Below, one piece after another: positions 8,298 through 33,803 of a DNA stretch of 33,803 bases. Both the position numbers and the translations under genes were made by a program. Numbering within the stretch: the first letter of the stretch is position 1; each line of letters opens with the position of its first letter. Origin of the DNA: a bacterium. Lineage in GTDB: Bacteria > Patescibacteriota > Minisyncoccia > JAHIHE01 > DAOWLE01. Location of the stretch: NCBI GenBank assembly GCA_030643545.1, contig DAOWLE010000044.1:1-33803 (forward strand). The letters are read 5' to 3'. The notes under the pieces are model-generated. The model was not told the DNA's origin and ran no database searches. It was given only the letters and a program-made list of their open reading frames with translations.

Positions 8298-9431
8298 TTA
8301 TTTAATAACTCCGCCTTCTTTTTTAATTGTTTTCATCTTGTCTTTTATTTCTTCTTTTAATTTATTATATTTATCCCAAGTTAATAGCCAAACAAGGGCA
8401 ATAGAATCAATCGTATCAGCCAAAACATAAATACTGATTTTATCAAGTTTCTTTTTATATTTTGGATCTTCCAAAATTTTCAGTTTTTTATATTCTTCTT
8501 CTTTCATCTTTTCCGGAATAAAATCAGTAGAAATTAAATAAGAAACAAAACAAACCGCTTTAATATAATCATATACTTTTCTGTTTTCCTCGCCTAAAAC
8601 TTCTTTATCTGCGAGCCTTCCTTTTACTTTTTTTAATTTCCATTTTCTTTTGCTTAATTCATCTATTACATCATACAGAAAAGATTTTTTAAATTTTTTT
8701 CTGCATTTCTTGTCTTTAATAAGTTCAGGCGCGCCGTCAATATCATAATCAAAAACCTTTCTCTTTTTATCAAATTCATAAAATTTTGTTATTTCTTTAT
8801 CCCAGTATTTTTCCATATCCGGATGGATTGTTGACGGTCCGTAGAAATCTCTGGCATCGCAATGCGGCGGCACATGAGCATCAGCTAAATAATGGCTTAA
8901 CATTAAAAAGTAAAGCGTTATTTGGTCATCATTAAAAACAATATCAGATCCTTTTGGTTCGTCTTTTTGGATCAAAATCATATCTCTGATAGAATGAGTT
9001 AGTGCTTCGCATCTGTCAGGAAGAGTATATTTTGACTTTTTGCAAACTTTTTCTTTAAGCCGTGATTTTTTAATTTTAAGTTTTTTAAATGAAGACAAAT
9101 GGTTCGGCGTTCTATTCTTAATTTCCATCATATGCTCTTTCCCTTCTTTTGTTGACGGTTTCACAAGTTTTAAAGTATGTCCGCCGGTAAGATTATCAGA
9201 GATAACACTGTCGGGAAACCAAGCACCTTTAACAAATGCGTCTTTATGCTTGTCAAAAAATTTTACAAAACTTTCGGCTTGTTTTTCAAAATGTTTGTCA
9301 AAATTATTGCTGATAAAATAACTTCTGAAATTTTTTTCAAGAAAACTGCCGTTGGAAGTTTTGGATTTTTTTGGCTTTTTTAATCTTTCCAACGCCATTA
9401 AGGCAAGCCATGCATGAGCTATTGCTTTCAT
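8298..9431 (-). CDS. Zinc-dependent phospholipase C / S1-P1 nuclease-like protein
   Basis: The 377 residues are compatible with the zinc phospholipase C/S1-P1 nuclease fold, whose members use three zinc ions to cleave phosphodiesters in lipids or nucleic acids. Candidate zinc ligands appear in the expected order: a His in the N-terminal AIAHAWLA, an Asp in AWFPDS near 93, a His in ALTHSIRD, and the HYLADAHVPPHCD segment near 182-194, which matches the family's HxxxDxxxPxH core. The C-terminal helix contains LADTIDSIALVWLLTWD. No signal peptide is visible, although the family is usually secreted, so it may be cytoplasmic or the family assignment may be distant. It has its own promoter and terminator and is a single-gene unit. 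The substrate is unknown. Confidence 0.65.
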   Translation of the reverse strand: MKAIAHAWLALMALERLKKPKKSKTSNGSFLEKNFRSYFISNNFDKHFEKQAESFVKFFDKHKDAFVKGAWFPDSVISDNLTGGHTLKLVKPSTKEGKEHMMEIKNRTPNHLSSFKKLKIKKSRLKEKVCKKSKYTLPDRCEALTHSIRDMILIQKDEPKGSDIVFNDDQITLYFLMLSHYLADAHVPPHCDARDFYGPSTIHPDMEKYWDKEITKFYEFDKKRKVFDYDIDGAPELIKDKKCRKKFKKSFLYDVIDELSKRKWKLKKVKGRLADKEVLGEENRKVYDYIKAVCFVSYLISTDFIPEKMKEEEYKKLKILEDPKYKKKLDKISIYVLADTIDSIALVWLLTWDKYNKLKEEIKDKMKTIKKEGGVIK

Positions 9432-9623: not shown

Positions 9624-10652
9624 TTAATCGGAAATTAAATTCATAATTATTTTAATCATCACGTCTTTTTCCTTCGGATTGCTTTCCGCTATTAATAAAG
9701 CCAGAGCAATTAAAGTATTGTCGTTTATCTTTTTTTCTCCATTTTCGCGATAGAGATAATTTGATTTATCTAAAAAATAAATAAATAAAAACGAGGAAAT
9801 TCTTTTGTTTCCGTCAGTGAAAGGATGATCTTTTATTGTTAAATACAAAAGATGCGCGGCTTTTTCTTCAATAGTTTTATAAAGTTCTTTTTTGCCGAAT
9901 GTTTGATAAAGATTTTTAACAACGCTTTCAAACGCGCTTTGCTTTTCCGCGCCAAAAAGCTCGCTTGCTTCTTTTTTAACCATAAGCTCTTTTTTCAATT
10001 CCGCAATAATTACAAAACAGTTTTTGTATTTCAAAGCAAAATCAACTTTTTTGCCTTTCGGCTTTTGTAAATTACCCTTGTCATATTTTTCTAAAACGCT
10101 TAATGTTTTAGAATAATCGGCAAGAAGATTGATAATTTCCTTTTCCTGTCCTTTAAGTTGTTTCTTGTTTGCCTGTTTTTGTAAAAAGGCAATTGTAGTT
10201 TGCAACTCATTAAATTTATTCCGCGCTTCTAAAAGCCGGCTTTGATTTATCGCGTATCCTTGAATAAGATAATTTTTTAAAACTTTTGTCGCCCAGATGC
10301 GAAATTGCGTGGCTTGCGCGGAATTCACGCGATAACCAACAGAGATAATTGCGTCAAGATTGTAAAATTTCACAGATTGAGTTTGAGTTTTTCCTTTAAT
10401 AGCTCCATGTTTAGTGGTATGTTCCAAAATGGAACTAACCGAATCTTCTTGTAATTCTCCGCTCTCAAAAATATTTTTAAGATGTTTAGTAATAGCTGGT
10501 CTTTGTACTCCAAAAATTTGAGCCATCTGGCGCGCGTCAAGCCAAACTGTTTCTTTTTCTAAATGCACTTTCAAGCCAACTTCGTTTTTTGAAGCTTGAT
10601 AAATAATAATCTCGCCCTTATTAAATTTTTCCACTTTTTTCTTTTTAGGCAT
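9624..10652 (-). CDS. RhuM-family N-terminus fused to a Fic/Doc domain
   Basis: A 342-residue two-domain protein. Residues about 15-150 match the RhuM (virulence/phage-associated) domain, with WLDARQMAQIFGV and a helix-turn-helix-like QRPAITKHLKNIF segment. Residues about 200-342 form a Fic/Doc domain with the motif HPFTDGNKR at 276-284. Classic Fic AMPylators have GNGR. The Lys after GN is the Doc-type variant; Doc phosphorylates EF-Tu. A toxin or signalling role is therefore likely but unproven. A helical linker at about 150-200 joins the domains. No separate antitoxin is adjacent, so the RhuM part may control the toxin. The gene starts 34 bp after the PD-(D/E)XK nuclease stop and is the last gene of the defence-like array. 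Confidence 0.82.
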   Translation of the reverse strand: MPKKKKVEKFNKGEIIIYQASKNEVGLKVHLEKETVWLDARQMAQIFGVQRPAITKHLKNIFESGELQEDSVSSILEHTTKHGAIKGKTQTQSVKFYNLDAIISVGYRVNSAQATQFRIWATKVLKNYLIQGYAINQSRLLEARNKFNELQTTIAFLQKQANKKQLKGQEKEIINLLADYSKTLSVLEKYDKGNLQKPKGKKVDFALKYKNCFVIIAELKKELMVKKEASELFGAEKQSAFESVVKNLYQTFGKKELYKTIEEKAAHLLYLTIKDHPFTDGNKRISSFLFIYFLDKSNYLYRENGEKKINDNTLIALALLIAESNPKEKDVMIKIIMNLISD

Positions 10653-10686
10653 ATTTTAAATAAATTTTTGAAAGTTTGGAAATGGA

Positions 10687-11481
10687 TTATGAATTTGTTT
10701 CTGCGGAGAGAATTGCTTTTCTGTAATTACAATAATCGCATTCAGGATTGGCTTTTGGAATTTTACTGCTATTCAAACATTTATGAATGTCAAAAATAGT
10801 TTTCTCAACCCAGTTATCATTGCCTTTGTATGGAATTAGAGTAATATCAAATTCTAATTTTGCGTCAAACGCTTTTTTATCTGTCTTGCCGTTGCAATAA
10901 ACAAAATAACCAGTATCAGAAACTTTGTAGCCGTTCTGTCTGAGCAGCCACTGATAAACTTCCATTTGCCTTTTATATCCCTCGTGCCAATCCTTATCTA
11001 ATTTTGTGATTTCTTCGGCTTTGGCTGTCGCTTTATAATCAACGACAAACAATTCAGGAGATTTCTCCCCCTTGCGAAGGGGGAGATTAAGAGGGGGTTT
11101 AGCCCAAAGATCATCAATCGCTCCGAATATTAAAAGATTGGTCGGTTTATGTAAAAATTGAATGCCAGTAAAATTGTGTCGCCATTTATCTAAATCTTTG
11201 TGCGGAATCGGTTGGGCATCCACGCCGTATTTTTCAATCAAAGGATGTTTTTTATTTTTCGCCCGGCAAATGTCAAATTCTTTTTTTAATAAAGCGTCCA
11301 CCGCAGAATTCAAAGCAAACGGAAATCCCGGCGGCCGTCCAACTCCCAATTTTCTGTCAAAATAAAAACAGCGAGGGCAATTTAAAAACAAATCAATCTT
11401 TGATCGAGAAAGATTAAAAGGTTCTTTTGAACCGGAGTTGTATAAATTTTTTGTTCGTTTGGAATTGTAGTATTGAGACAT
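10687..11481 (-). CDS. PD-(D/E)XK nuclease of the Cas4/RecB type with four-cysteine cluster
   Basis: Predicted DNA exonuclease of 264 residues. It has an SRSKIDLFLNCPRCF start typical of RecB-like/Cas4 nucleases. The catalytic aspartate lies in GAIDDLW (123-124), followed by VVDYK with D148 and K150. A QMEVYQWLL helix equivalent to the QxxxY motif follows. Two Cys pairs (C35/C38 and C248/C251) probably bind a 4Fe-4S cluster. Residues about 128-141 are an in-frame insertion encoded by a palindromic repeat (11065-11100) just before the catalytic strand. The first 15 codons are duplicated at 13327-13373. There is no cas1, cas2 or CRISPR array in the window, so CRISPR adaptation is unlikely. The context points to phage defence or repair. 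Confidence 0.82.
   Translation of the reverse strand: MSQYYNSKRTKNLYNSGSKEPFNLSRSKIDLFLNCPRCFYFDRKLGVGRPPGFPFALNSAVDALLKKEFDICRAKNKKHPLIEKYGVDAQPIPHKDLDKWRHNFTGIQFLHKPTNLLIFGAIDDLWAKPPLNLPLRKGEKSPELFVVDYKATAKAEEITKLDKDWHEGYKRQMEVYQWLLRQNGYKVSDTGYFVYCNGKTDKKAFDAKLEFDITLIPYKGNDNWVEKTIFDIHKCLNSSKIPKANPECDYCNYRKAILSAETNS
11065..11100. repeat. Palindromic repeat inserted in frame in the PD-(D/E)XK gene
   Basis: A hairpin CTCCCCCTT-GCG-AAGGGGGAG (11065-11085) is followed by ATTAAGAGGGGGTTT. In frame on the minus strand it reads PPLNLPLRKGE, a peptide I recognise as the translation of a dispersed palindromic repeat in many bacteria. It adds about 12 residues to the protein without breaking the frame. 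Confidence 0.8.
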
Positions 11482-11484
11482 AAA
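11438..11484. repeat. 47 bp direct repeat, copy flanking the RT gene downstream
   Basis: Contains the start codon and first 15 codons of the PD-(D/E)XK gene. It matches 13327-13373 at 45 of 47 positions. The two copies bracket the reverse transcriptase gene. Confidence 0.92.
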
Positions 11485-11568
11485 TTTATTGATTATTTTT
11501 TGAAAAGTTTTTTGTATTTCTTAAACTTTGGAGAATGACTGTAAAACAGTTTTTGTAATGAAACCATG

Positions 11569-13194
11569 TCAATTAATAGATTTTACATACTTTACAATAC
11601 TTTTATCTAAAATATCATCTCCTTTCATAATTGATTTCAACCAATGATTTCTTTCATCTTTTGACAATAACGAAGAACAATAAATTAATGCATACCTACC
11701 TCTTCTTTCATAAACATCAATATTTGACTTATGATCTTTTATAAAGATATCATCACTTTTTAATTTTGCAAAAAAAGCTTTATCATATAATGTGTTTATA
11801 GATTCTGTTTTTAAATGTATATGTTTAAAATTCTTGTTTTGAAATAAATACGACATCCACATATTTACATAAGGATAATCTTTGAAATATTTGCTCTTGA
11901 ACAAGAAATTTATCAGTTTAATATTTTTACTAATAAAATCATTATCAACAGTTTTATTTATATATAAAATAACTTCTCTTAATATAGGAAGAAAAAGTTT
12001 AAAATTTTCTAGTATAAACTTGCGTGGTTTTTTGATTCTATAGTGTGTGCATTTTCTTATAACATACTTCAATACTTTATAATCAGAAACTTTTGAATTG
12101 ATATTTTCTTTGATTATTTTTGTATAAGCATTTGATAAAATATTGAATTGATCATTTTTTGACATTTTTTTATATATCTTACCAAAATCTAAATTCTCAG
12201 GATCTTCTTCCATATCATACGGGTCAATTCCTGTGTCATATTGATTAATTAAATCTATTTTATTCTCTATCTCATCCATTGCTTTTTTTTCTGTGATATT
12301 AAGAATATTATTATCTTCTTGTTTTTCTTCATTTTTAAAATATTTTTCTTTAAATATTTCTACATCACAAATTTTTGTCTTTTCTCCTGAAAATATAAGC
12401 CTGTGTGATTTATAAATGTAACAACTTATCTCGTGTAAAATATATTCTAAATCCTCTTTCTTTTTTGAAAAAATACGAATGTCGTCGCTGTATCTAACAA
12501 AATTACATGTATATTGTAATATCTTTTTATCAATATCACTCATTATTGCTTCAGATAAAATTGTACTTGCGGCTGGTCCTACTGGTATACCTTTAGATGT
12601 GCTCTTGTTTAAATTTAGCAAAAAATTTTCAAGAACAACAGCTTCTTCTTCTAAACTTCCTTCTCCAGCTTCAGATATCATATTTCGAACCCTATGAATA
12701 TAAATTTGATTGTAAAAATCAGCAATATCCGCCACTAATATATATCCTTTACTATATTTTTTACAAAAATCCTCAGTTTTTTTTGAAAAATCTCCCCATC
12801 CATTATCATCTTTTCTAAAAAATGATCCATCAGAAGTAGGTTTGATTCTATAAGAACATGCTATTTTTCTTCTAATGGAAACTCTGTGCTTTTCTATGTT
12901 TTTACAGATTTCATAAACTAATGCCGTATAGATAAGAGAATCTATTGGCTCTAAATTGTGTACAATTCTATAATTATAATTTGGCTTAAGAGCAAGCATT
13001 ATGTCAGGTGATTTTGGCGCATAATCAAAAATATTAATTTTTCTAATGTATTCTTTAACTTCTATCCAGTTTTCTGAAATTGAATGAAATTCAAACGATT
13101 TGGGAAAAAAATCGCTACTGTAAAATTTAAGATGGTGTTTTAACGACCATTCTAAAAATCTATCGTCAATAAATTTAGTTTTTACTTTTTTCAC
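11569..13194 (-). CDS. Reverse transcriptase, defence-associated (Abi/UG-like), class unassigned
   Basis: A 541-residue RNA-directed DNA polymerase. The palm motifs are intact: motif A LVADIADFYNQI (D156), the GIPVGPAASTILSE segment at 202-215 (family motif 4) and the catalytic YSDD at 235-238, followed by an SGEKTKI segment. A hydrophilic insert covers about 283-330. The C-terminal 210 residues look mostly helical and end with an ALIYCSSLLSKDERNHWLK segment similar in style to Abi/UG reverse transcriptases. There is no VTG motif as in retrons and no maturase or HNH domain as in group II introns. It is flanked by 47 bp direct repeats and sits between the RloB-like and PD-(D/E)XK genes. Its AT-rich codon use and many ATA and AAT codons differ somewhat from the housekeeping genes, which fits transfer. 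Confidence 0.9.
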   Translation of the reverse strand: MKKVKTKFIDDRFLEWSLKHHLKFYSSDFFPKSFEFHSISENWIEVKEYIRKINIFDYAPKSPDIMLALKPNYNYRIVHNLEPIDSLIYTALVYEICKNIEKHRVSIRRKIACSYRIKPTSDGSFFRKDDNGWGDFSKKTEDFCKKYSKGYILVADIADFYNQIYIHRVRNMISEAGEGSLEEEAVVLENFLLNLNKSTSKGIPVGPAASTILSEAIMSDIDKKILQYTCNFVRYSDDIRIFSKKKEDLEYILHEISCYIYKSHRLIFSGEKTKICDVEIFKEKYFKNEEKQEDNNILNITEKKAMDEIENKIDLINQYDTGIDPYDMEEDPENLDFGKIYKKMSKNDQFNILSNAYTKIIKENINSKVSDYKVLKYVIRKCTHYRIKKPRKFILENFKLFLPILREVILYINKTVDNDFISKNIKLINFLFKSKYFKDYPYVNMWMSYLFQNKNFKHIHLKTESINTLYDKAFFAKLKSDDIFIKDHKSNIDVYERRGRYALIYCSSLLSKDERNHWLKSIMKGDDILDKSIVKYVKSIN

Positions 13195-13233
13195 ATTATT
13201 GTTTTTATTTTCTATTAACCTTTTTTATTATCA

Positions 13234-13306
13234 CTATCTCCAAACCTCGTCAATTTCGTCTTTGATTTATTGCTCAAAAACTTCAATTAACTGTTGGCTG
13301 GCTTAT
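13234..13306 (-). pseudogene. Decayed coding fragment related to the pseudogene at 15547-15976
   Basis: On the minus strand a short frame reads VFEQ-stop-IKDEIDEVWR-stop. It parallels VFKQQIKDEIVEIF at the end of the 15547 pseudogene, with roughly 34 of 45 bases identical. The in-frame TAA shows decay. It lies inside the RT cassette, upstream of the RT start. The rest of the 187 bp between RT and the RloB-like gene is the 47 bp repeat and AT-rich sequence. No strong hairpin suitable for a structured RT template RNA is evident there. Confidence 0.5.
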
Positions 13307-13326
13307 TAGGCAAATGCAGGCGGGGA

Positions 13327-13373
13327 TTGTATAAATTTTTTGTTCGTTTGGAATTGTAGTGTTGGGACATAAA
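13327..13373. repeat. 47 bp direct repeat, copy upstream of the RT gene
   Basis: Duplicate of the 5' end of the PD-(D/E)XK gene. It encodes a start codon and MSQHYNSKRTKNLYN and then runs into unrelated sequence with a stop 12 codons later. Its ATG lies 8 bp after the stop of the RloB-like gene, where the second gene of an operon would be expected. Confidence 0.92.
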
Positions 13374-13381
13374 GTTATAAT

Positions 13382-13912
13382 TTATTTTCCCTCCATAATT
13401 GAAATTAATTTGTTTAATTCAAATATTGCCGATCTTTTAGAATCTAATAACTTTTTGGAAAATAACTTGTCGTATTCGCTCGGTTTACCACGTTTCTTTT
13501 TTTCAAGATATTTTAACTCAAACTCATTTTTACACCACCTGGAATTTTTTCCGTTTGGTTTTTTGTAAATAATTGATATAAGTAAAAATTCCAAACAAGG
13601 AGTATTTTCTATTAATTCAATTTTTCTTCTTTTTGCTTCTTGTCTTGCTTCAATCATTTCATTTTTTGGTTTATCGTTATCAAAAACAACAATTTTTCTA
13701 TCAAAAGCACCATATGTTTTATCTGCATCAATAATAATATTTTGTGCATCACCACCTTTCCCTTTTTTAACAGTCGTAGCTGTGCCACTATTGCGAGAAT
13801 ATAATTTTCTTAAATGTTTTAAAAACATTTCTTCGTTAAATCCTTCTCCGAACAGAAGAAGAGTTTTTTTTGCTCTTCGTCTTTTCTTTTTGTATGGATT
13901 AGTTCTTGACAT
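13382..13912 (-). CDS. RloB/AbiLii-like Toprim protein
   Basis: A 176-residue protein with a Toprim-like layout of the RloB family: a basic N-terminus, LLLFGEG with the conserved Glu at 23, FDND at 77-80 supplying the DxD pair, and NTPCLEFLL near 103-111, which corresponds to the family's NPxFExWL motif. RloB proteins pair with AAA ATPases in AbiL and RloA/B modules and are presumed nucleases, though their reaction is not settled. It starts 12 bp after the ATPase stop, a tight operon. The N-terminal KKKRRRAKK stretch may contact nucleic acid. The C-terminus is slightly shorter than usual, and the final HF-type motif is not evident. Confidence 0.8.
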   Translation of the reverse strand: MSRTNPYKKKRRRAKKTLLLFGEGFNEEMFLKHLRKLYSRNSGTATTVKKGKGGDAQNIIIDADKTYGAFDRKIVVFDNDKPKNEMIEARQEAKRRKIELIENTPCLEFLLISIIYKKPNGKNSRWCKNEFELKYLEKKKRGKPSEYDKLFSKKLLDSKRSAIFELNKLISIMEGK

Positions 13913-13924
13913 ATTTGTTTTATC

Positions 13925-15139
13925 TTATAATTTAGGAACGGCTCCATACGCGCCTGCAATATATTTTGCGTAATAATTATCATCGGCGCGCACTCCAGAC
14001 ACATCATCTAGACGCCAGGATTCGCTTTCTCCTTTTTCATTTTTTTCTGTGAGAATAATCTGATATTTATCTAGCTTATTTAAAACCAGATGACTATGAG
14101 TGCTGAAAAATAATTGAGCATTATTAGGATTCGTTTCTGGATGAATAAATAATTCATACAGAGATAAAACTATTTCCGGATGCAGATTAACATCAAATTC
14201 ATCAAGAACCGCAACACCTCCATTAGCTAACACCAAAAGAATAGTTTTTAATAAAATAAAAAGCTGCTTTGTGCCAGAAGATTCATATTGCATTGGGAGA
14301 TATTCAGTCCGATTGTTAAAAAAATGGGCAACTTTTACATTCATTGAAAAACTATTTTCTTTTTTCTCTTTTTTTATTTTAAACGACTCTAAACCAAGAT
14401 CAAAACGAGATAATAATTTTTCAGCTTCTTTCTTTAGTGTTTCATTTTTACTTTCACTATAGAAATCCAGTGCTTCAATCAACTGTTGATTTGCGTTAGG
14501 CAAAAGATGATCGCCAATCCAGCCAGCTTCAATAACATTAGTCTCTACTTTTTTCCAATAGTCGAAAAATTTAAGACTCTCTTTATGTCCCAAGCGAACA
14601 GCGATACTAATTATACTAGCATTGGGCCGAATTGAGTTTTCAAATCCGTTTGGAAGATTAAAACTCTTATCGTTCAGTTCATATTCTCCACTTTTCCGGT
14701 TCCACTGACGGGAAAAAATCTTCTTGCTTGTCATTTTTTGTTTGGTTTTATTTTTAACTTTCAGCTCTTCTAAAACAATTTTCTTTTCTTCCAAAATAAA
14801 GCTGTAAGTATAAATATTACCATCAATTTCAAAATCAGCCGACAACTTAATTGGTTTATTCTTCCGCTCGCCAAACATAAACGATTTTACCGGCAATGGC
14901 GTTGTTGGATTAATATTAGATGAATCTGCTATTAGCCATTTTATAAACGGCAAAACTTTCAACAAATTTGTCTTGCCAGAAGCGTTCGGCCCTATTACGG
15001 TTTCAATTTTAGAAAGTCGAGTCCCCGAAGGAGTTAAAAAATAACCATGATTGTTTGGCGCTTTTTCATTTACAACAAAACTTACCGAGCAATCTTCGGC
15101 AAATGAATAAAAATTTTTGCATGAAAATGAATGAATCAT
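13925..15139 (-). CDS. AAA15/AbiLi-like ATPase (partner of the RloB-like protein)
   Basis: A 404-residue SMC/ABC-like ATPase of the AAA15 family. The N-terminus MIHSFSCKNFYSF is the usual start. Walker A GPNASGKT lies at 50-57, the SSGTKQLF signature at about 288-295, Walker B VLDEFD at 311-316, and a switch His in STHSH. The C-terminus carries IAGAYGAVP, which is typical of AbiLi/AAA15 proteins. Such ATPases act as sensors or motors for a partner nuclease, here the RloB-like protein 12 bp downstream, so the pair resembles lactococcal AbiL. It is the first gene of the island's main operon and has an unusual AT-rich inverted repeat upstream instead of a clear promoter. Confidence 0.88.
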   Translation of the reverse strand: MIHSFSCKNFYSFAEDCSVSFVVNEKAPNNHGYFLTPSGTRLSKIETVIGPNASGKTNLLKVLPFIKWLIADSSNINPTTPLPVKSFMFGERKNKPIKLSADFEIDGNIYTYSFILEEKKIVLEELKVKNKTKQKMTSKKIFSRQWNRKSGEYELNDKSFNLPNGFENSIRPNASIISIAVRLGHKESLKFFDYWKKVETNVIEAGWIGDHLLPNANQQLIEALDFYSESKNETLKKEAEKLLSRFDLGLESFKIKKEKKENSFSMNVKVAHFFNNRTEYLPMQYESSGTKQLFILLKTILLVLANGGVAVLDEFDVNLHPEIVLSLYELFIHPETNPNNAQLFFSTHSHLVLNKLDKYQIILTEKNEKGESESWRLDDVSGVRADDNYYAKYIAGAYGAVPKL

Positions 15140-15175
15140 ATATTTGTTGTTTTTAAAATGTATTCAAATATTTAT

Positions 15176-15360
15176 GGTTGTTTATTTTGGTTATTAGAGA
15201 AACTTTTTGTGTTAACTGAATAATTAGTTGTTTCATATTAATAAAAATATTAATTAAAAATAAAAAATAATGCTCCAATATTTGTTTTAATTCTCATTTC
15301 TAACTGTAAAGAATAATTTATTTGTACTACTAATAACCCTAATAGCCAAAATAAACAAAC
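15176..15360. repeat. Imperfect inverted repeat (22 nt arms) upstream of the ATPase gene
   Basis: The arms at 15176-15197 and 15339-15360 match at 20 of 22 positions (core TTGTTTATTTTGG) and enclose 141 nt of AT-rich sequence without coding potential. It lies 37 bp upstream of the ATPase start. It could be the ends of a small mobile element or a long-stem RNA. The remaining 15361-15546 holds only AT-rich sequence and the hairpin at 15453. Confidence 0.7.
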
Positions 15361-15452
15361 TATATACAAAATATAAAATACATAAAAAAATCTATAGTTA
15401 TATGTTAGCAAAATTATATATATATGTCAAGAACCTACAAATTTTTGTATAA

Positions 15453-15483
15453 AAATGCTTAAAATCATATATTTTAAGCATTT
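15453..15483. terminator. Bidirectional terminator-like hairpin
   Basis: A perfect 13 bp stem (AAATGCTTAAAAT and complement) with a 5 nt loop has T-rich sequence on both exits. On the minus strand it would stop transcripts coming from the DpnI region before the ATPase operon. Confidence 0.7.
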
Positions 15484-15546
15484 TTTAACTCCGTTAGCAC
15501 TTTTTTAAAAAAAAGTTATCCACAATCTAAAATTTATTTCATTTTC

Positions 15547-15976
15547 TTAAAAAATCTCCACAATTTCATCTTTAATTTGTTGCTTAAAAACTTTACGGAT
15601 TATAAATTTGTTTTCACGGAGAAGCAACTCTATTTTTTGCAACGGCAAATAATTAAAATATAATTCCTATTTTTCATCTGTTATAATTACATTTTTCTTA
15701 TCTGGATATTTTTCTGAAAAAATAGGATTAACAACTGGAATATTATCAGCCATTACAACCTTTGTGTCATTTCCGTGTTTTTTCGCTATTTTCTCTAATT
15801 TTTGAATAAATTTTTTTAGTTTGATTTTACTCGCTAAAAAATAATGTATATTTTTTCTTGATTTTTTAGCAAAGTTGAAAATTTTCTTACTTTACAAAAT
15901 TATTGTCATTAAAAAAATTAGATAACCACAAAACAGGTTTGGTTAAAAATTTTGGAATCAATAATGTCAAATTCAT
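15547..15976 (-). pseudogene. Degraded gene of unknown family
   Basis: A start MNLTLLIPKF at 15976 runs for 29 codons to a stop. The reading then shifts to another frame, which stays open for about 73 codons, meets an in-frame TAG at 15667-15669 and continues about 37 codons in the same frame to a TAA at 15547. One frameshift and one amber stop would restore a protein of roughly 140 residues with basic, helical character (KKFIQKLEKIAKKHG) and the ending KQQIKDEIVEIF. I do not recognise the family. It lies 4 bp after the DpnI gene, so it may be a decayed member of that cassette. A related fragment is at 13234-13306. Confidence 0.55.
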
Positions 15977-15980
15977 AAAT

Positions 15981-16748
15981 TTAAACTAATTTATATTTAC
16001 CATCGCCAAGAAATTTTAAATAACCTTTATCTCGTAAAAATTGAAGTTGCTGTCTAATTTTGTCTTCAATGTGTTTATTTTCAGGATGTTTTATTTTTAA
16101 ATATTTTTCAAAAGCATAAATTTCATTAAGTTTAAATTCATTTTTTCCAAGTTTATCAATGCAATTCATAACATCTAAAATCCATCCTTTCAATTTTGCT
16201 TTTTTAGATTCTCTTAAAAATAAAGTTTTTTGCCAATTCTTTAAAATTTTTGCTTTTGGTTCTATTTTCTTATTTCGCACATAAAAAATTTTACCGCTTT
16301 GAGGAATACTTTGTAGTAAAATATTACATCCAATCCATCCTGCGCGACGAGCATTTAAAGACAGTGGCTTTCTTTTTTCAATAATTTCAGGAACAAAAAA
16401 ATGTTTCGGAATGATAAAAAAATTTAAAACTTCATAGCTACTAACATCATAATTTAATAAGAAAAAATTGGGATTATTCGCACTTTGCAACCTTTCTATC
16501 ATTGTTTTATATGCTCCGTCTAAAACTTTTTTTCCAATAGAATCTTTTTTGCTTTTTAATTCATATTCTTCTTTACAATTAGGACAATAAAAATCAGCTA
16601 CTGGCTTATTGTTTTCATAAGAATCAATATTTATTCCGCAATTCGGACAAAAAATTTCTTCATCAACCCAGTTTTCACTAAGCACTCTGATTTTTTGAGA
16701 AGCGCTTTTGTAATCTTTTGCGAGTTCTTTATTAAAAACTATTTTCAT
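15981..16748 (-). CDS. dpnI: DpnI-family methylation-dependent restriction endonuclease
   Basis: A 255-residue close relative in layout of pneumococcal DpnI, which cuts GATC only when the adenine is methylated. Residues 1-180 form the catalytic domain: zinc-binding Cys pairs CPNC at 34-37 and 55-58, and the PD-(D/E)XK site D52, E63, K65 in ADFYC and YELKSK. The segments NPNFFLL, LNARRAGWIGCNI and LFLRESKK correspond to DpnI. Residues about 185-255 form the C-terminal winged helix (NHIxxKIRQQL-like HIEDKIRQQLQFLRDKG). It has the full family length with nothing missing. It starts 12 bp after a truncated DpnA-like methyltransferase. An active enzyme requires that the host's own GATC sites be unmethylated. 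Confidence 0.95.
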   Translation of the reverse strand: MKIVFNKELAKDYKSASQKIRVLSENWVDEEIFCPNCGINIDSYENNKPVADFYCPNCKEEYELKSKKDSIGKKVLDGAYKTMIERLQSANNPNFFLLNYDVSSYEVLNFFIIPKHFFVPEIIEKRKPLSLNARRAGWIGCNILLQSIPQSGKIFYVRNKKIEPKAKILKNWQKTLFLRESKKAKLKGWILDVMNCIDKLGKNEFKLNEIYAFEKYLKIKHPENKHIEDKIRQQLQFLRDKGYLKFLGDGKYKLV

Positions 16749-16760
16749 AATAAATAAAAT

Positions 16761-16892
16761 TTAAATAGACAAAAAATAAGGCGGATCGGCAAAAATCATA
16801 TCAATGGAATTTTCTTTCATTTCTGCCAAAACTTTTAAACAATCTGAATCGTATAATTCGAATTTTTGTTTTTGATAGTATGGTTTAATCAT
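16761..16892 (-). pseudogene. Truncated DpnA-like adenine methyltransferase
   Basis: The ATG at 16892 begins MIKPYY and reads 43 codons to a TAA at 16761. It ends IFADPPYFLS-I-stop, directly after the catalytic DPPY motif. In full beta-class GATC methyltransferases such as DpnA the sequence continues for about 220 more residues, including the SAM-binding FxGxG motif, which are absent here. The N-terminus (KPYY, SIDMIFADPPYFLS) matches DpnA well. A longer start at 16946 exists, but the shorter one matches the family. It cannot be active. The break point lies 12 bp before the DpnI start and could be a cassette-exchange scar. The first half-site may also act as a leader ORF for DpnI. Confidence 0.8.
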
Positions 16893-16981
16893 ATATAATA
16901 CTTTAATTTCTATTTTTATTCTACAACGAAAACGTCCAAAAATCAACAGAGGGTTTTTATGGATAAATTATAATTAAAAAA

Positions 16982-17000: not shown

Positions 17001-17017
17001 AAAAGTTTTTGTGAAAG

Positions 17018-17131
17018 CAGGGCTATCGGGATTCGAACCCGAGTTACTAGGATGCCCGCCCTACGGCGGATCTCCTCCTACGGCGGATCCGCAGAAAGCG
17101 GACGCTAAAAGCGGAAAAACCTATCGTCTTA
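17018..17131 (-). pseudogene. Broken tRNA-Glu copy 1 with a 61 nt insert in the anticodon
   Basis: The 3' half of tRNA-Glu (T arm and acceptor strand) and the anticodon stem are retained. An insert at 17055-17115 separates nt 35 and 36 of the tRNA. The insert is a chain of GC-rich hairpins (CCGCC..GGCGG, TCCGC..GCGGA). The acceptor and most of the D arm on the 5' side are replaced by TAATAAAG sequence. It cannot form a tRNA. Confidence 0.8.
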
Positions 17132-17152
17132 ATAAAGTTTTTTGTTGAAAAG

Positions 17153-17236
17153 CAGGGCTATCGGGATTCGAACCCGAGTTACTAGGATGCCCGCCCTTCG
17201 GCGGGTCCGCAGGAGGCGGAAAAACCTATCGTCCTA
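17153..17236 (-). pseudogene. Broken tRNA-Glu copy 2 with a 31 nt insert in the anticodon
   Basis: Same structure as copy 1. The insert at 17190-17220 is two tandem hairpins and sits between nt 35 and 36 of the tRNA. The flank TAATAAAGTTTTTTGTTGAAAA is shared with copy 1, so the two arose by tandem duplication. The 5' acceptor and D arm are missing. Confidence 0.8.
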
Positions 17237-17257
17237 ATAAAGTTTTTTGTTGAAAAG

Positions 17258-17331
17258 CAGGGCTATCGGGATTCGAACCCGAGTTACTAGGATGAAAACC
17301 TAGCGTCCTAACCAGACTAGACGATAGCCCC
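17258..17331 (-). tRNA. tRNA-Glu(TTC), intact
   Basis: A 74 nt tRNA. The acceptor GGGGCTA pairs with TAGCCCT (G1-U72 wobble) and has discriminator G, as in other tRNA-Glu. The D arm starts GTCTAG. The anticodon arm CTAGG-TTTTCAT-CCTAG gives anticodon TTC. The T arm is TCGGG-TTCGAAT-CCCGA. CCA is not encoded. It is the only unbroken member of the four-copy array. Confidence 0.96.
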
Positions 17332-17366
17332 ATTATTGTATTTTCTTGTAATTATTAAAACTGTAA

Positions 17367-17444
17367 TTACTAGGATGCCCGCTTACAGCGGATCCGCCGT
17401 AGGCGGAAAAACCTAGCGTCCTAACCAGACTAGACGATAGCCCC
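17367..17444 (-). pseudogene. Broken tRNA-Glu copy 4 with a 30 nt insert in the anticodon
   Basis: It retains the complete 5' half (acceptor strand, D arm, anticodon stem) and the 3' side of the anticodon stem. The insert at 17378-17407 carries two hairpins. The T arm and 3' acceptor strand are missing. It is complementary in content to copies 1 and 2, which keep the 3' half. The remaining sequence up to rpmH (17445-17578) holds nothing I can identify. Confidence 0.8.
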
Positions 17445-17578
17445 ATTGTTTAATAAATCTTTGATTCTTTTTTTTAATAATTCTCTTTGTTGTCCGTTTG
17501 TTTTTAATTCAAATTGCCAAATATATCAATCAGCTTTATTTTAAAAACATAAAAATCGCCAAAATATTTTTTGGATAA

Positions 17579-26900: not shown

Positions 26901-29900
26901 CTACTGATACATCACATCAACTCCTAAGCTATAAAGATCTAATTCCGCCTGATTAACATTGTAAATCGCTTCTTCAGACCCACCGCGGGCGTAAAATTGC
27001 CCGGCAGTCATATTAAGATGATGCATTGTTGAATCACCATTAATTTCATAGACCTTGTCAGTTGCTGACGGAGTTCCATTTGGTCCGGTGCAAACTCTTG
27101 CCCAAGCGGATAAGGAATAATCATCAAGAGAGGAAACTGATTTAATCATATCCCAGTTAAGATGCCCGTAAGAATTGAAAACCTCCGGAGAAACAATATG
27201 CCTTTTGATTTTCTTGTCGTTGATTATTTTAATTACATAAACTTTTTCATCGTCGCCAACGCGGACAACATCGCCATCAGAAAGTTCAATAACTGAATCC
27301 CCCATTATGGCAAAGTTGGAAAAATTAGTTGTAGTTGCCGTAATCGTATTGGTCGCCGCGTTAACGCTGCCGGTTAAAGCAACCCATTCTGTTCCATTCC
27401 AGCGATAAATTTTTAATGTCGCTTCGTCAATTCCGGAAATTTGCGCGTCGGTGTAAGTGAAAGAAAGAGTCACCGCTTTTGAGAATGAACTAATTGAAGT
27501 TGTTCCGGCGGTAGCGGTAATCGTGAAAGCGCTTGCCATTGATTTTCCAGTCGGCGCCGGAGCTGAAGCGGCAACACTTGCCGTGGAAGCAGAGGCAATT
27601 TCAACAGTAGCGTTTTGAGTTAAAGCGTTAGCCGGAATTTCAACTTTTGCCGTAGTATTATCAGCGGCGGTCAAAATTGTTTCTCCGCCGTCTGAAGACG
27701 TGGCCTCAACTGTCCCGGTAGTGGTTGAAGGGGTTGATGACAAAGTGCTTGTTCCTCCGCTGCTGCTATTTACCGGCGTTGCTGAAACTTCGTTTGAAAC
27801 AGGCGATTCATTTCCAGAACTGTCAGCCGCAGTTACCACATAGTAATATGCTGTTCCGTTTTGAGCAGTTGTGTCAGTATACTGGCTCACGGCAACTTGG
27901 GAAGTATTAATTTGATTTGCGCTGATCGCCTGAACGCTCGCGCTGGTACTTCGATAAATCTCATATTCTAACAAATCAGCTTCTGAATTATCATCCCAAT
28001 CCAAACTCACTTGGCTGCTGCCGGCAGTCGCGACTAAATTGGTTGGCGCGCTCGGAGCGATTAAATCAGAAGGAGTGGTCCCCCCGAAAATGGTAAGATG
28101 GCCTGTTGTTGATTGAAGCGTTATTTTGTAATCTCCATAAGCATCAGAATCTGAAACTAAATTATCCGCAAAAGTGTCAAAGTCTGGCTGGACTGTCCAT
28201 TCTGCATCAGAAGCGTTCGCTTTAGTATAAGCTTTTTTAGTTGTGGAAAGCGGCACCCAATCGCCCACTGAAGCGTCCCAGTATGAATTGGTCAATAATT
28301 TTAATTTACCCATATCAGTTTCTCCTGCTTCAGTAATATCTTCTTTATAATAATTAAGCTCTATTTCTATATCGCTATTTAAGGTAGTGATTGCCTGACC
28401 TGAATTATCTTGCGCGGTAATTTCTTTTCCTTTACCTCCGAGAGGTTCAGCTGAATTTGTTTTGGAAACGCTGCTTACTTCTTTTGTCCTGATATTTCCT
28501 GAAGAAGTGCCGCTTCCAAGAGCGTTTGGAGGAGCGACAATCTTAACACCAGTCCCGGAACTCAAACTATCGTCTAATGTTCCACCGGAAGCTGGAGTCA
28601 TCGGCCTGGATTTTAGTTTGGAACTCCAGTTTGCGTCCACAGTTAAATTAATATTATTTCCAGCCGAGCCAGAACCGTCAACAGTAATAGGGCTGCCAAA
28701 TCCTGTCTCGCTATATCCTTCTCCAACTCCTTTCAAAATATATGTTCCGTCAACCACGCCAACTGAAAAAGTCCCGTCAACTTCGGTTGGAGAACCGGCA
28801 ATTTGCTTGGTTGTTGTTTCTTCAACCCAAACCCAGCCGTTGGCAATTTCTTCATTGCTATCATAAGTGCTGTCGTTGTCAGCGTCAGCGTAAATTACAC
28901 CGGTAATAAATTGGTCAGCAGCTGTTAAAGCGTAATCTACTTCGGAAGCGTCTGCCAAAACAACAATATCAGTCGGCTGTTGAGGAACATATCCAGGCAT
29001 TTCAACGCCCATTTTATATGTTCCGGTTTTTACAGTAATAGTATAAACTCCGCTGCTATTTGTCGCGGCTCCGGTATGGACTCCTGTTGTTGGATTTCCC
29101 ATCCACACCCAGGCGCCTCCAATATTACTGCTGTCAGAACTGTCAGTGATAGTTCCGGTAACAGCAAATAATTCGGTTAAACTGTCAGGCAAATCAAATT
29201 CTACTGTGTTGTCAATTAAACTTACAGTTCCTTCAGCCCAAATAGCAGGAGTGCCACCCACTACAGTAATACAATGTTTAGTGTTTCCCGCAGCATCCGC
29301 CTCATCTGGAATATAAAATCCGGCGCCGGGAACATCTAAAAAGAACAGATAATCTCCGACTGGAAGTCTAACAGATGAATCAGCGTTCAGCGCGGACATC
29401 TTAATCGTTTTATGAAAACCAGTAGGATGACAAATATTGCCAGAACAGCTAAGCCCGTCAATATTGACTATTCCTGTTTGAGAAGCGGCGCCATTAGTAA
29501 ATTTAATATCTACTTCTTTTAAATTTTCGCTGGCAATTATTATGTCTTTTCCAGTTTTGCTAGCGGTAGTAATTACAACATTAGCCGGACTGTTTGCCAC
29601 CTCATCATCAACTGTCAGTTCAACTTCGCCGAATTCCGGAGTCCAAATGTCAACTCTGTATTTTCCCGGAGGAACTGAAATTGAATATTCTCCAGACGCG
29701 TTAGTTTGTCCGCCATATTCTCTTCCAAGATAATTTCCATTGCTATCGTATTCAACCGCCCTGATAGGCATATAAGTTTGATCAATGTTGTTAAGAGTGA
29801 CAGTTCCTGAAATAGCATAATAAGTTACTGAAGAATCTTGCGACAAATTCTGTGTCATTGACGCTCCATCCACCACAACTGTCTGTGATTGAGAATCTCC

Positions 29901-32900
29901 AAAACCTGGAATATAAGATTGAACAACCCAGCTTCCATTAGACACATAAAGAATATAATTTCCAGAAGCGTCAGTCATTGTGTCAGCGTGCCCCATTCCA
30001 TTTGGCTGATACGCCCAAACCGGAGCGTAGGAAACCGGATTTGTTCCATTGGTTACTTTTCCGGAAATAGTCCAATCAGGTTTTTGAATTTTAAAGATGA
30101 ATAAATTATCGCCAGCGTCTTCTGTCCCGTTATTATTTACATCAATAATTAGAGAATTATCTACCTCAACATCAGCAGTGCTATTTCCATCATCAACAGG
30201 ATTAGAACCAACACTTTCCAAATCTCCATCGGTAAACACTCTTACAGTTCTATCTGGCGTACCCGGCAATCCCGGCTTGAACACGCCGACTGAATATGTT
30301 CCCGCTGTCGCGACTTTCAAAGTAAATTTTCCGTTTGTATCTGTCTTCGCGTGAGATCCCATTCCCATTCCCATCGGCTGATAAGCAAACGCTTCCGCGT
30401 CAGCAATAGCGTTGCCCGCGCCGTCTTGGACATATCCAATAATCTCCATAGTGGCGGTTGAAATTGAAATATCTAAAGTTTGCGAGGATGAACCGTTGCT
30501 TACAATTGTTGTCGGCATTGGCGGCATCCAGTCAGGCATTGGCGGAGGGCCGGCCATCGGACCTTTTGGCATTGCCGGGCCTACTCCAACCATCCAATCT
30601 CCCGCTGGAAGATAAAGAATAGTTGATAGCGCACTGCCAGTTCCAGTTAAAGTTTTTACTTTAAAACCGACAGGGCTTCCGGCAAAAACATCTATTGCGT
30701 CGCCGTTAGGAATACCAGTTATATTTACGGTAACAGCCGCCACAGCGCCAGCGTCTTCTTTTGCCAAAGCTATTGTTTTAGTTTCACCAACTTGATCAAC
30801 AATAATCGGCTGGGGCATTGGCATCCCCAGATAATCAGTAGTGCCTAAAGTAATAGTCGGTTCGGTAAATAACATATATTGTCCCTCTAATAAACTTGAA
30901 AATGTTACCGAATCAGATGTTTCATTAAGGAAAGCAACAGTTTGCTCCATTGGACCGGTCATCGGACTGCCCAAGAAAACAGTTACATCGCCATTGTCGC
31001 CGGAAGTCACTCCGTTTATTGTTACCACTAAACTATTGCTTCCGCCTTCGTTTATAAAGAACGGCATCGCGGTAATTGTTTCAAGCAAATTTCCGCTCGC
31101 GTCCATTGTTTTCATATCAACCGTGTATCCAGAAGTTTCAAATCCGCGCGGGATTGAAGAATTTACAATGTCCTTTATATCCATACACAAAAAATCATTG
31201 GGCTGGGTAGCGGATGTTTTAGTTGTTATTGTAATTGTTCTCGCGTTCTTGTCGCCGAGCACTGAATTAATTCCTACAGTTCCCTCGTTCCATTCATTTA
31301 TATCATTATTCACAGGAGAATACGGATCTTTTGCCGCGTTTTCCACATCAAATCCAACCGGGAAAGTTAAAACGATTCTGCCTCCGGCCGGGATTACTTT
31401 CGTTGTCGGAACATCAACAAAATATATTGTTGTCTGTCCGGCCATTGCGTTCATCGGAAAAACGCCGGCGCCCATCATTCCCATCATCCCCATATCCGGT
31501 CCCATCATCCCGCCGCCGCCCATCATCGGACCAAGCATTCCTCCGGTGTTGGCGCTGTTTTGAATCGGCATTTGAAAAGTTGAACCGCTAGTCATATCAT
31601 TTCCTGAAAGATCGGTAACACCAGTTCCTGTAACAGTTGCGGATGTTGTATCAATATAATAATCATTGCCGGCAGTAGTTCCTGGTATATCATCAATCAT
31701 TACTGTATTTCCCATTCCGTCATATTTGAATTTAGCGTTTGTTAAAACAAGTCCGCTGATGCCGCTCCAGTCAATTGTCCCTGCTGGTCCTTGTTTAATA
31801 ATATAATTCGCCGGGTTCAAAACAGAGGTCGCGTAATTTGCCGCTGTGTCAGCCACGCTTGCCGAATTCATAGATTCTGAAAAAGTAATTGCCACCCCGT
31901 ATTCATCGCCGTTGGCGAACATAATTGACGGATCAACAGCATCGCTAACACTGTCAGTCGTAAATGTAATTATATTTGAAGCAATAGGCACTCCGACCGC
32001 GTCAGTAACGCTCGTCGTAACAGTCAAAGTATAATCAGTGCTGGTCGCTAAAATAACGCTTGGGGAAAACGACGCGGACTGGGACATTGGATCATAACTT
32101 ACATTTCCCGTCACCGCAGAGGTTCCTCTTTTTAAAGTAATAGTGTTTGAATTTATTGTTGACGGATCCATCCCTTCGGAAAATTGAATAGTCATCATTC
32201 CCGGATTAACAGCAATTTCAATATCTCCGTTTGCCGGCCAGCTTCCTAATACTGTTGGGGGAGTTGTGTCCGAACTTGTTCCCACTTCAAATCCTGAATT
32301 ATAAAATCTATAAGTTGAAACATGGCGCCCTTGTCCTGGATCCCCCATCCAAATTCCGGTAGCGCTTTTTAAGGCGCCTGAAACAGCAATCCTATACCTG
32401 CTTCCAACCGCAAGAGCGGATAGCGGAGTTAAAGTTGCATTCTTTCCAGAAGTATCAAGAGAGATAGAAAAATCTACAGCGATTTCTGTTTCGTCATATC
32501 CGCTATAAGTAAGTTTATATAATTTTATGTTTGTGGTATTAACTGTGGTTGAATCCATCGGGTCGGAAAAATTGATATTTATTTTAGCGTTTGTCATTAC
32601 ATTCATCGCTCCGTCATAAGGATTTGTTCCAATGACAAACGGAGGCATCATCGCTCCGGTTCCAAAATTATCGCCCATCATCTGATCGTTAGTAAAAGTT
32701 CCGCCAGCGGTAAATGAAATCATATGTCCGCCATCAGGACGGTTGCCTTGCAATGCGTTTCCGGCGGTGTCGCGGATGGTGCCGTTCATAATTAAATAGT
32801 AAGTTGTGTTTTCTGTAAATCCTGCTCCGCCAGCCGGCAAACTGATTACTCCCAGATACGGATCCATTTCTACTGGTGGCATATATTGATCTCTGGTTGG

Positions 32901-33803
32901 ATTGTATTCGGCGGTGTATCCGGTTAACGCGGCTTCCGCGGCCCCTGAAGGATTATTAGTCAGAGTAACGCTTGATGTAGTAAAAGTTGTTGTGTCAATA
33001 TCTTTTGAAAATCCGACAAAAATTTTAAAGTCCGCCATTCCCGCTGGAATTCCCATCATCCCGTCCGGCGGACCTGTCCACATTACCATTGGCTTTTCGC
33101 TGTCGCCGGTCATTCCTCCACCTTGGCCAAGATACATAGTTCTGTCAACTGTTACAGCGGCGCCGTTGACAAATACATCATTAATATTTTCTTCAAAATA
33201 TCCATCCTTAATCATTGTTAAATTATAAATTCCGTTTGGAACGGATAATGTATATACTCCGCTTCCATTAGTAGTCGCGCTATAACCAGTTCCTTCTATC
33301 ATTACTAAAACACTTGCAATCGCTGCTGGAATATCGTCTGTAACTGTTCCTGTAATATCATATGTTGTTATAGACGACGATAATACGACGCTAATAATAA
33401 AAGGACTTACTGCCACCGCTGCTTCTTGCAAGGCCACTGTATCATAAGTTCCTGTATCAGCCATCGCGTCCATTGACATAAAACCGGTCCCGCCGTCTGT
33501 GACAACTTTTAAATAATAATATAAACCATTAACTCCAGTGCTTGCGTCAACAGTGCCTTGTGGAATCGTAAATTTAAAAAATCCATTTGATTGGTGAGTT
33601 CCAAGAATAGTTGTGAATTCCGCTGCCGTCGGGCTTCCATCGCCAATCATATAATGCAGTTCTGCGACTATCTGATCAATCGGCGTCATTGGATCTCCCA
33701 TTTGCGCGGTAATTTCTAAATCAGATTCTGTTACTGCTGAATTGATAGGCATATGCATAATCATCGGACCATTTCCCGCGGCTCCGCCATAACCGCTAAA
33801 ATC
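26901..33803 (-). CDS. Giant multidomain surface protein (5' end outside window)
   Basis: The frame is open to the window edge, so the N-terminus and signal peptide are missing and the true protein exceeds 2300 residues. Residues below count from the first internal Met at 33764. Several carboxypeptidase-regulatory-like beta domains occur (for example about 130-210 and several between 1110 and 1710, recognisable by ITGTVTD..G..VxxG.Y). Big_5-type Ig-like domains lie at about 220-610 (PVMxWxGPP, TNPxDGAMNV, SWPANGDIEI). A fibronectin type III domain is at about 1895-1990 (SAPTNLVATAGSSQVSLDW). A ZU5-like TAKVEIPANAL stretch lies near 2030. The last 130 residues form a C-terminal domain with VRVGDDEKVYVIK and two related halves. 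Met/Gly- and Pro/Met-rich linkers are at about 740-770 and 1060-1085. It is probably an adhesin or surface coat protein; the ligand is unknown. Confidence 0.88.
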   Translation of the reverse strand, partial: DFSGYGGAAGNGPMIMHMPINSAVTESDLEITAQMGDPMTPIDQIVAELHYMIGDGSPTAAEFTTILGTHQSNGFFKFTIPQGTVDASTGVNGLYYYLKVVTDGGTGFMSMDAMADTGTYDTVALQEAAVAVSPFIISVVLSSSITTYDITGTVTDDIPAAIASVLVMIEGTGYSATTNGSGVYTLSVPNGIYNLTMIKDGYFEENINDVFVNGAAVTVDRTMYLGQGGGMTGDSEKPMVMWTGPPDGMMGIPAGMADFKIFVGFSKDIDTTTFTTSSVTLTNNPSGAAEAALTGYTAEYNPTRDQYMPPVEMDPYLGVISLPAGGAGFTENTTYYLIMNGTIRDTAGNALQGNRPDGGHMISFTAGGTFTNDQMMGDNFGTGAMMPPFVIGTNPYDGAMNVMTNAKININFSDPMDSTTVNTTNIKLYKLTYSGYDETEIAVDFSISLDTSGKNATLTPLSALAVGSRYRIAVSGALKSATGIWMGDPGQGRHVSTYRFYNSGFEVGTSSDTTPPTVLGSWPANGDIEIAVNPGMMTIQFSEGMDPSTINSNTITLKRGTSAVTGNVSYDPMSQSASFSPSVILATSTDYTLTVTTSVTDAVGVPIASNIITFTTDSVSDAVDPSIMFANGDEYGVAITFSESMNSASVADTAANYATSVLNPANYIIKQGPAGTIDWSGISGLVLTNAKFKYDGMGNTVMIDDIPGTTAGNDYYIDTTSATVTGTGVTDLSGNDMTSGSTFQMPIQNSANTGGMLGPMMGGGGMMGPDMGMMGMMGAGVFPMNAMAGQTTIYFVDVPTTKVIPAGGRIVLTFPVGFDVENAAKDPYSPVNNDINEWNEGTVGINSVLGDKNARTITITTKTSATQPNDFLCMDIKDIVNSSIPRGFETSGYTVDMKTMDASGNLLETITAMPFFINEGGSNSLVVTINGVTSGDNGDVTVFLGSPMTGPMEQTVAFLNETSDSVTFSSLLEGQYMLFTEPTITLGTTDYLGMPMPQPIIVDQVGETKTIALAKEDAGAVAAVTVNITGIPNGDAIDVFAGSPVGFKVKTLTGTGSALSTILYLPAGDWMVGVGPAMPKGPMAGPPPMPDWMPPMPTTIVSNGSSSQTLDISISTATMEIIGYVQDGAGNAIADAEAFAYQPMGMGMGSHAKTDTNGKFTLKVATAGTYSVGVFKPGLPGTPDRTVRVFTDGDLESVGSNPVDDGNSTADVEVDNSLIIDVNNNGTEDAGDNLFIFKIQKPDWTISGKVTNGTNPVSYAPVWAYQPNGMGHADTMTDASGNYILYVSNGSWVVQSYIPGFGDSQSQTVVVDGASMTQNLSQDSSVTYYAISGTVTLNNIDQTYMPIRAVEYDSNGNYLGREYGGQTNASGEYSISVPPGKYRVDIWTPEFGEVELTVDDEVANSPANVVITTASKTGKDIIIASENLKEVDIKFTNGAASQTGIVNIDGLSCSGNICHPTGFHKTIKMSALNADSSVRLPVGDYLFFLDVPGAGFYIPDEADAAGNTKHCITVVGGTPAIWAEGTVSLIDNTVEFDLPDSLTELFAVTGTITDSSDSSNIGGAWVWMGNPTTGVHTGAATNSSGVYTITVKTGTYKMGVEMPGYVPQQPTDIVVLADASEVDYALTAADQFITGVIYADADNDSTYDSNEEIANGWVWVEETTTKQIAGSPTEVDGTFSVGVVDGTYILKGVGEGYSETGFGSPITVDGSGSAGNNINLTVDANWSSKLKSRPMTPASGGTLDDSLSSGTGVKIVAPPNALGSGTSSGNIRTKEVSSVSKTNSAEPLGGKGKEITAQDNSGQAITTLNSDIEIELNYYKEDITEAGETDMGKLKLLTNSYWDASVGDWVPLSTTKKAYTKANASDAEWTVQPDFDTFADNLVSDSDAYGDYKITLQSTTGHLTIFGGTTPSDLIAPSAPTNLVATAGSSQVSLDWDDNSEADLLEYEIYRSTSASVQAISANQINTSQVAVSQYTDTTAQNGTAYYYVVTAADSSGNESPVSNEVSATPVNSSSGGTSTLSSTPSTTTGTVEATSSDGGETILTAADNTTAKVEIPANALTQNATVEIASASTASVAASAPAPTGKSMASAFTITATAGTTSISSFSKAVTLSFTYTDAQISGIDEATLKIYRWNGTEWVALTGSVNAATNTITATTTNFSNFAIMGDSVIELSDGDVVRVGDDEKVYVIKIINDKKIKRHIVSPEVFNSYGHLNWDMIKSVSSLDDYSLSAWARVCTGPNGTPSATDKVYEINGDSTMHHLNMTAGQFYARGGSEEAIYNVNQAELDLYSLGVDVMYQ

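Follow-up and report, generated by a model that had tools for sequence, protein, structure and literature searches.

A small defence island at a tRNA-Glu gene appears to be built of separately acquired modules

Five genes of defence-type families stand one behind another at positions 9624-15139 of the window, by which we mean the whole 33,803-nt stretch of contig DAOWLE010000044.1 (GCA_030643545.1) analyzed here, and they raise the question of whether an AbiLi-like ATPase, an RloB Toprim-like protein, a reverse transcriptase (RT), a Cas4-like nuclease and a RhuM-Fic protein work together as one system. We consider it very probable that they do not, and that the stretch is part of a small defence island at a tRNA-Glu gene in which four functionally separate modules and a DpnI-type restriction gene arrived independently and have only their position and strand in common. 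This reading is carried by the identities of the genes, their intact catalytic motifs, their independent distributions and different nearest relatives, and a scar in the gap that separates RloB from the RT.

All five open reading frames (ORFs) are intact on the minus strand at the coordinates given by an earlier, sequence-only reading of this DNA, separated by gaps of 12, 187, 87 and 34 bp. The minus strand also carries all main genes between positions 3 and 16946, housekeeping genes included, and the shared orientation is therefore local background and not evidence for an operon. Profile searches against Pfam and PADLOC upheld the five family assignments of that reading (Table 1), while the curated cut-offs of NCBIfam were passed by none of the five proteins. 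Its inventory of genes proved incomplete, as it lacked both the DpnI gene and a decayed nuclease 5' end lying in the 187-bp gap.

Table 1. Positions of the island genes, repeat copies and island edge in the window.
Feature	Positions	Strand	Evidence and remarks
AbiLi-like AAA/ABC ATPase (module 1)	13925-15139	minus	404 aa; Pfam AAA_21 1.3e-30, PADLOC AbiLi 5e-72
RloB/AbiLii Toprim-like nuclease (module 1)	13382-13912	minus	176 aa; Pfam RloB 7e-11, PADLOC AbiLii 3e-14
Nuclease-gene 5'-end remnant, 62 nt	13327-13388	minus	direct repeat, between RloB and RT
Drt8-family UG/Abi RT (module 2)	11569-13194	minus	541 aa, GTG start; RVT_1 1e-13, PADLOC Drt8 7.8e-117
Intact counterpart of the 62-nt repeat: nuclease gene start and leader	11438-11499	minus	repeat comparison
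Cas4/RecB-like PD-(D/E)XK nuclease (module 3)	10687-11481	minus	264 aa; PDDEXK_1 8e-12, Cas4 2e-10
RhuM-Fic protein (module 4)	9624-10652	minus	342 aa; RhuM 2.5e-24, Fic 1.8e-10, PDC-S23 1.2e-123
DpnI-type methyl-directed restriction endonuclease, further island module	15981-16748	minus	Pfam DpnI 6.7e-82, DpnI_C 2e-32; PADLOC mREase_II 1e-117
Adenine methyltransferase, truncated N-terminal piece	16761-16946	minus	PADLOC MTase_II 1.7e-12 over 40 residues; ends just past DPPY
tRNA-Glu(TTC), island edge	17257-17331	minus	pseudo-copies on both sides

The one linkage conserved in the searched genomes is that between the ATPase and RloB. The ATPase is rare, occurring in six of 141 genomes of the class including the source, and in all five of the others, where it is 44-88% identical, RloB adjoins it; a survey of wider flanks found none of the window's other genes near these five pairs. 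Together with the AbiLi and AbiLii profile matches, this adjacency bears out the earlier likening of the two genes to AbiL, the adjoining AbiLi ATPase and AbiLii/RloB Toprim genes of Lactococcus lactis, although the window pair is distant from the lactococcal one in sequence. The ATPase has Walker A (GPNASGKT) and Walker B (VLDEFD) motifs whose key residues are invariant in six relatives, and residues E23, D78 and D80 of RloB are invariant too. In a structural comparison of the RloB model (pLDDT 89), the Toprim domains of OLD and GajA head the VIA list with Z of 9-10, unrelated folds following at about 8; Foldseek alone gave weak matches to this model, with nothing at E<0.001. RloB has been tied to the OLD Toprim and AbiL to abortive infection, and the window pair shares with AbiL the combination of an ABC ATPase and a separate RloB bearing OLD-like Toprim features (PMC10440598). 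The two genes form an AbiL-type pair; for them as for the other modules, we infer biochemical activity and a role in phage defence. The ATPase may sense infection or restrain its partner and the Toprim protein may cut nucleic acid, leading to abortive infection, as PARIS, OLD and Gabija would suggest. A search of viral contigs with the ATPase returned no match.

The RT, in turn, was placed in the Drt8 group by a full-length match far stronger than that to the runner-up PADLOC group (3.9e-38), and the same model was matched by all 53 aligned RTs, namely the window RT and 52 others. Its active site reads RYSDD, and D156, D237 and D238 are invariant across the 53 sequences. To assess its surroundings elsewhere, relatives were collected by a profile-guided genome scan, which yielded 80 bacterial and archaeal loci with full or near full-length proteins, mostly 25-45% identical, and with five viral contigs gave 85 loci, whose flanks of up to 10 kb were searched by tblastn with the other window proteins. 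The nuclease, RloB and DpnI had zero matches in these flanks, and the sole matches were a RhuM-family protein at one locus (L049), some 5 kb from the RT, and a weak ATPase match at another (L054). The nearest RT, 61% identical over its whole length, belongs to a metagenome-assembled genome (MAG) of Ignavibacteria (L043) and stands alone: one flank carries housekeeping genes, the other an unrelated gene beyond a gap of 477 bp, and there is no defence gene around it. Flanks were available for 78 RT loci. At 22 of these the RT lacks a nearby gene on its own strand, and no Pfam family recurs just downstream of the RT; within 5 kb, the only widely recurring neighbours are phage integrases (nine loci) and recombinases. 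Since the flanks show no recurring partner, the Drt8-type RT is most simply a one-gene system. Strong relatives of the RT were not found in 188 close genomes or in 380 genomes of the phylum, and the gene therefore came from outside. Single-sequence scans of viral contigs and of phages with the RT found nothing; matches on plasmids are distant (22-30% identity) and have no corresponding neighbours, a third plasmid locus having been read as ORFs only. A noncoding RNA beside the RT was also looked for: when the regions flanking the five closest RTs were aligned with MAFFT, a comparison of sequence and not of structure, they had no conserved sequence in common.

The AlphaFold model of the RT (pLDDT 90.6) combines an RT core with an all-helical C-terminal half. 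In the PDB it is matched best over its full length by DRT6, DRT4, Abi-P2 and AbiK. The window RT shares with these polymerases the core and the helical C-terminal domain, but sequence identity to them is only 14-17%, and the resemblance is one of predicted fold. DRT4 and DRT6 belong to the RTs whose DNA synthesis needs no template. Template-free DNA synthesis, sometimes protein-primed, is described for AbiK and its kin (PMC13174585; PMC11077055). Judged by its predicted fold, the window RT may share this template-free Abi-type (Class 1) activity: as a single-gene module it would synthesize DNA with no RNA as template, the primer probably being the RT protein itself, and thereby cause abortive infection. 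Reviews describe the mechanism of DRT8 as not established.

RhuM-Fic has a distribution of its own, being present in 53 of the 141 genomes, often in multiple copies. The window protein is a fusion of a RhuM domain to a Fic domain whose motif, HPFTDGNKR, fits HPFxxGNxR and is conserved among relatives, and it resembles the PADLOC candidate PDC-S23 over its full length, with no difference seen. At the RhuM-Fic loci inspected, none of the window's other genes stands beside it, save for a nuclease-like and a DpnI-like match, both weak and partial, and viral contigs searched with it gave no match. In the fusion, a DNA-binding domain would probably be paired with a Fic domain acting on a target by an AMPylation-like modification.

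These surveys bear directly on the view that the five genes form a single composite multi-effector defence operon, to which their one strand, short gaps and uniformly defence-type families lend some appeal. Only the ATPase-RloB linkage is conserved in the searched genomes, the nearest relative differs from module to module, the strand is that of the surroundings, and the 187-bp gap holds decayed gene pieces; we regard such an operon as extremely improbable, and the neighbourhood survey leads us to reject one multi-gene system. As a composite, the genes largely do not co-occur, since only the ATPase and RloB stay together: in the sampled relatives no others were found as neighbours, the RhuM-family match about 5 kb from an RT being the one exception. 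Of the two possibilities left side by side by the sequence-only reading, stacked modules have thus gained support, while a multi-effector system has not, for want of linkage beyond the pair. That reading had also recognized no named system in the arrangement; of its parts, the RT belongs to a named family, Drt8, and stands elsewhere alone or with unrelated neighbours, and the nuclease is a Cas4-like gene common in the lineage. What looked like a new five-gene system is in this light a pile-up, and a false family is avoided; the locus supplies further examples of a Drt8-type RT and of an AbiL pair, here in a reduced-genome bacterium.

To compare the identities of the modules with vertical descent, we used Lgt as a marker. 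Lgt of the window genome is 50% identical to that of G004 and 38-40% identical to those of G007, G008, G010 and G014, and outside the order it is 32% identical or was not found. The ATPase is nevertheless 88% identical to that of G010, and RhuM-Fic is 65% identical to that of G008 and 66% to that of G014, all three genomes being in the 38-40% range for Lgt. The nuclease is 77% identical to that of G026, a genome in which Lgt gave no match, and 61% to that of G004, and the closest relative of the RT lies in another phylum. GC content also varies by module (25% in the RT, 37% in the nuclease and 33% in the ATPase). On these identities, the four modules appear to have four different nearest sources, each far closer than the vertical marker would allow. 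The discordant nearest relatives and separate distributions therefore argue that the modules arrived separately.

A physical trace of such a history lies between RloB and the RT. The 62-nt remnant there aligns at 90% identity (blastn E 6e-20) with the beginning of the nuclease gene on the far side of the RT; in translation it reads MSQHYNSKRTKNLYN and then decays, and after it, still within the 187-bp gap, comes the end of another dead gene. Because the remnant is upstream of the RT, the presence there of the nuclease or a duplicate of it did not depend on the gene order seen now. A nuclease copy formerly stood between RloB and the RT, and insertions and deletions then gave the arrangement of today. 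A dead-gene ending resembling that in the gap is also found upstream of the ATPase, and the decayed nuclease copy and the dead-gene ends therefore point to piecewise accretion and not to a conserved operon. The scar shows how defence islands of this kind grow. The dead-gene pieces at 13195-13327 and 15139-15980 have two similar endings (...IKDEIDEVWR and ...IKDEIVEIF).

Three observations weigh against a set of wholly independent modules. The intergenic spacing is compatible with co-transcription; with no relative of the same genus or family in the sample, sister copies of the complete cluster may lie in genomes outside it; and five of eight contigs from a viral collection, in which a nuclease ortholog lies directly downstream of, or beside, defence genes, leave room for a looser link between the nuclease and defence.

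Among the 141 genomes of the class, 89 have the nuclease, and identities of 55-77% are frequent. This fits the reported commonness of solo-Cas4 in genomes of the candidate phyla radiation (CPR); in some DPANN archaea, solo-Cas4 genes stand beside restriction systems (PMC5704561). Residues C35, C38, D148-Y-K150, Q172, Y176, C248 and C251 are invariant in ten orthologs, so that it shares with the solo-Cas4/RecB-family Fe-S nucleases of CPR bacteria the PD-(D/E)XK site, the Q-x3-Y motif and four invariant cysteines, as well as a wide distribution in a small-genome lineage outside any evident CRISPR locus. In contrast to Cas4 proper, it is nearer to PDDEXK_1 by Pfam, barely passes the cut-off of PF01930 (23.0 vs. 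22.7) and scores 32.5 bits against TIGR00372 of NCBIfam, where the cut-off is 65; falling below the curated cas4 cut-off, it is filed as Cas4-like and not as Cas4. PADLOC found no other cas genes among the island genes scanned, the whole genome not having been searched for CRISPR, and solved relatives of the nuclease profile were not detectable by sequence. In the DNA at 11061-11100, a palindromic repeat encodes an in-frame insert of 11 residues, PPLNLPLRKGE, just ahead of the VVDYK active-site strand; it is unique to the window copy and absent from nine orthologs.

Could the RT and the nuclease downstream of it be a two-gene DRT8 system, the RT making DNA and the nuclease acting as effector or processor, with the other genes unrelated? 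DRT8 has been described in a 2025 paper as containing a PD-(D/E)XK domain (PMC12596737), and in the window a PD-(D/E)XK gene starts 87 bp behind an RT that fits Drt8 at full length and groups with 52 further Drt8 matches. Among the RT relatives surveyed, however, the reported component does not appear as a conserved neighbour, and the family of the window nuclease is not linked to the RT: its relatives are absent from the regions around the other RT loci, the nearest RT relative lacks a nuclease, the nuclease occurs across the class in genomes without such an RT, and its fossil 5' end sits upstream of the RT. We therefore think a two-gene system of this kind very unlikely, and an obligate pair is disfavoured by the RT flanks, by the Ignavibacteria locus and by the distribution of the nuclease. 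The window nuclease represents a gene lineage separate from DRT8's reported component, and since it is common in the lineage, in surroundings that vary and are mostly housekeeping, its position behind the RT does not make it that component. As a module of the island, the Fe-S nuclease would probably process or repair DNA or act as a stand-alone defence, and not as the RT's dedicated partner.

The viral-collection contigs (L199, L200, L201, L205 and L206) bring up a further view, that of the nuclease as a promiscuous accessory. It would join onto many different defence operons of the lineage from behind and cooperate with each of them, and the AbiL/RT cluster would be one instance. In four of these contigs the nuclease starts 14 bp behind GajAB, 2 bp behind a type IIG restriction enzyme and a Ppl-like gene, 4 bp behind a Ppl-like gene, and 4 bp behind a CBASS cyclase and 2TM effector, and in the fifth its neighbour is a type II restriction enzyme; the solo-Cas4 genes of CPR bacteria and DPANN archaea are in keeping with such a role (PMC5704561). 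Sampling in the viral collection is biased, though, short gaps are common in such compact genomes, and at about 48 chromosomal nuclease loci the 86 upstream neighbours are mostly housekeeping genes, with a handful matching PADLOC models. An accessory of this kind is, in our judgement, unlikely. Slightly more doubtful still is a broader form, in which the Cas4-like Fe-S nuclease is a general defence accessory of the lineage that settles behind Gabija, CBASS, Ppl-like, restriction and AbiL/DRT8 genes, and in which duplications of its 5' end mark sites of cassette gain and loss. The scar and the viral-collection contigs also prompted the idea that the nuclease gene is a dedicated landing site for defence cassettes. 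Partial second copies lie near a full copy at L184 (residues 222-250, downstream) and L236 (residues 22-79, about 2.5 kb upstream), too few for a conclusion, and the chromosomal survey revealed no general rule, so that this candidate was rejected. Separate arrival of the modules remains our preferred reading, and it raises the question of why the Cas4-like nuclease gene is so common in the class and sometimes stands right behind defence operons.

Beyond the five genes, the island includes the DpnI-type endonuclease, which resembles DpnI of the Dam-replacing family in having catalytic and C-terminal DpnI domains at full length, and differs in being preceded by a truncated methyltransferase piece. 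The gene follows directly behind this 61-aa fragment, which stops just past DPPY (15981-16946 for the two together), and it looks as if DpnI replaced the remainder of the methylase gene. A D12-family methyltransferase is encoded elsewhere in the genome, on contig 20, beside other candidate restriction genes.

At the island edge, positions 17015-17450 contain three tRNA-Glu pseudo-copies, each with a palindromic insert of the TCCGCC/GGCGGA type at the anticodon position. The core palindrome of these copies is a dispersed repeat of the genome, with 23 sites and none for the reversed control. Adjoining the island on its other side (8298-9431) is a 377-aa protein with no Pfam match, whose His/Asp pattern, judged by eye, is like that of zinc-dependent phospholipase C-like proteins. 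Further along, at 26901-33764, an ORF of 2287 aa reaches the window edge and has a GC content of about 0.44, compared with 0.30-0.38 for most of the other sequence.

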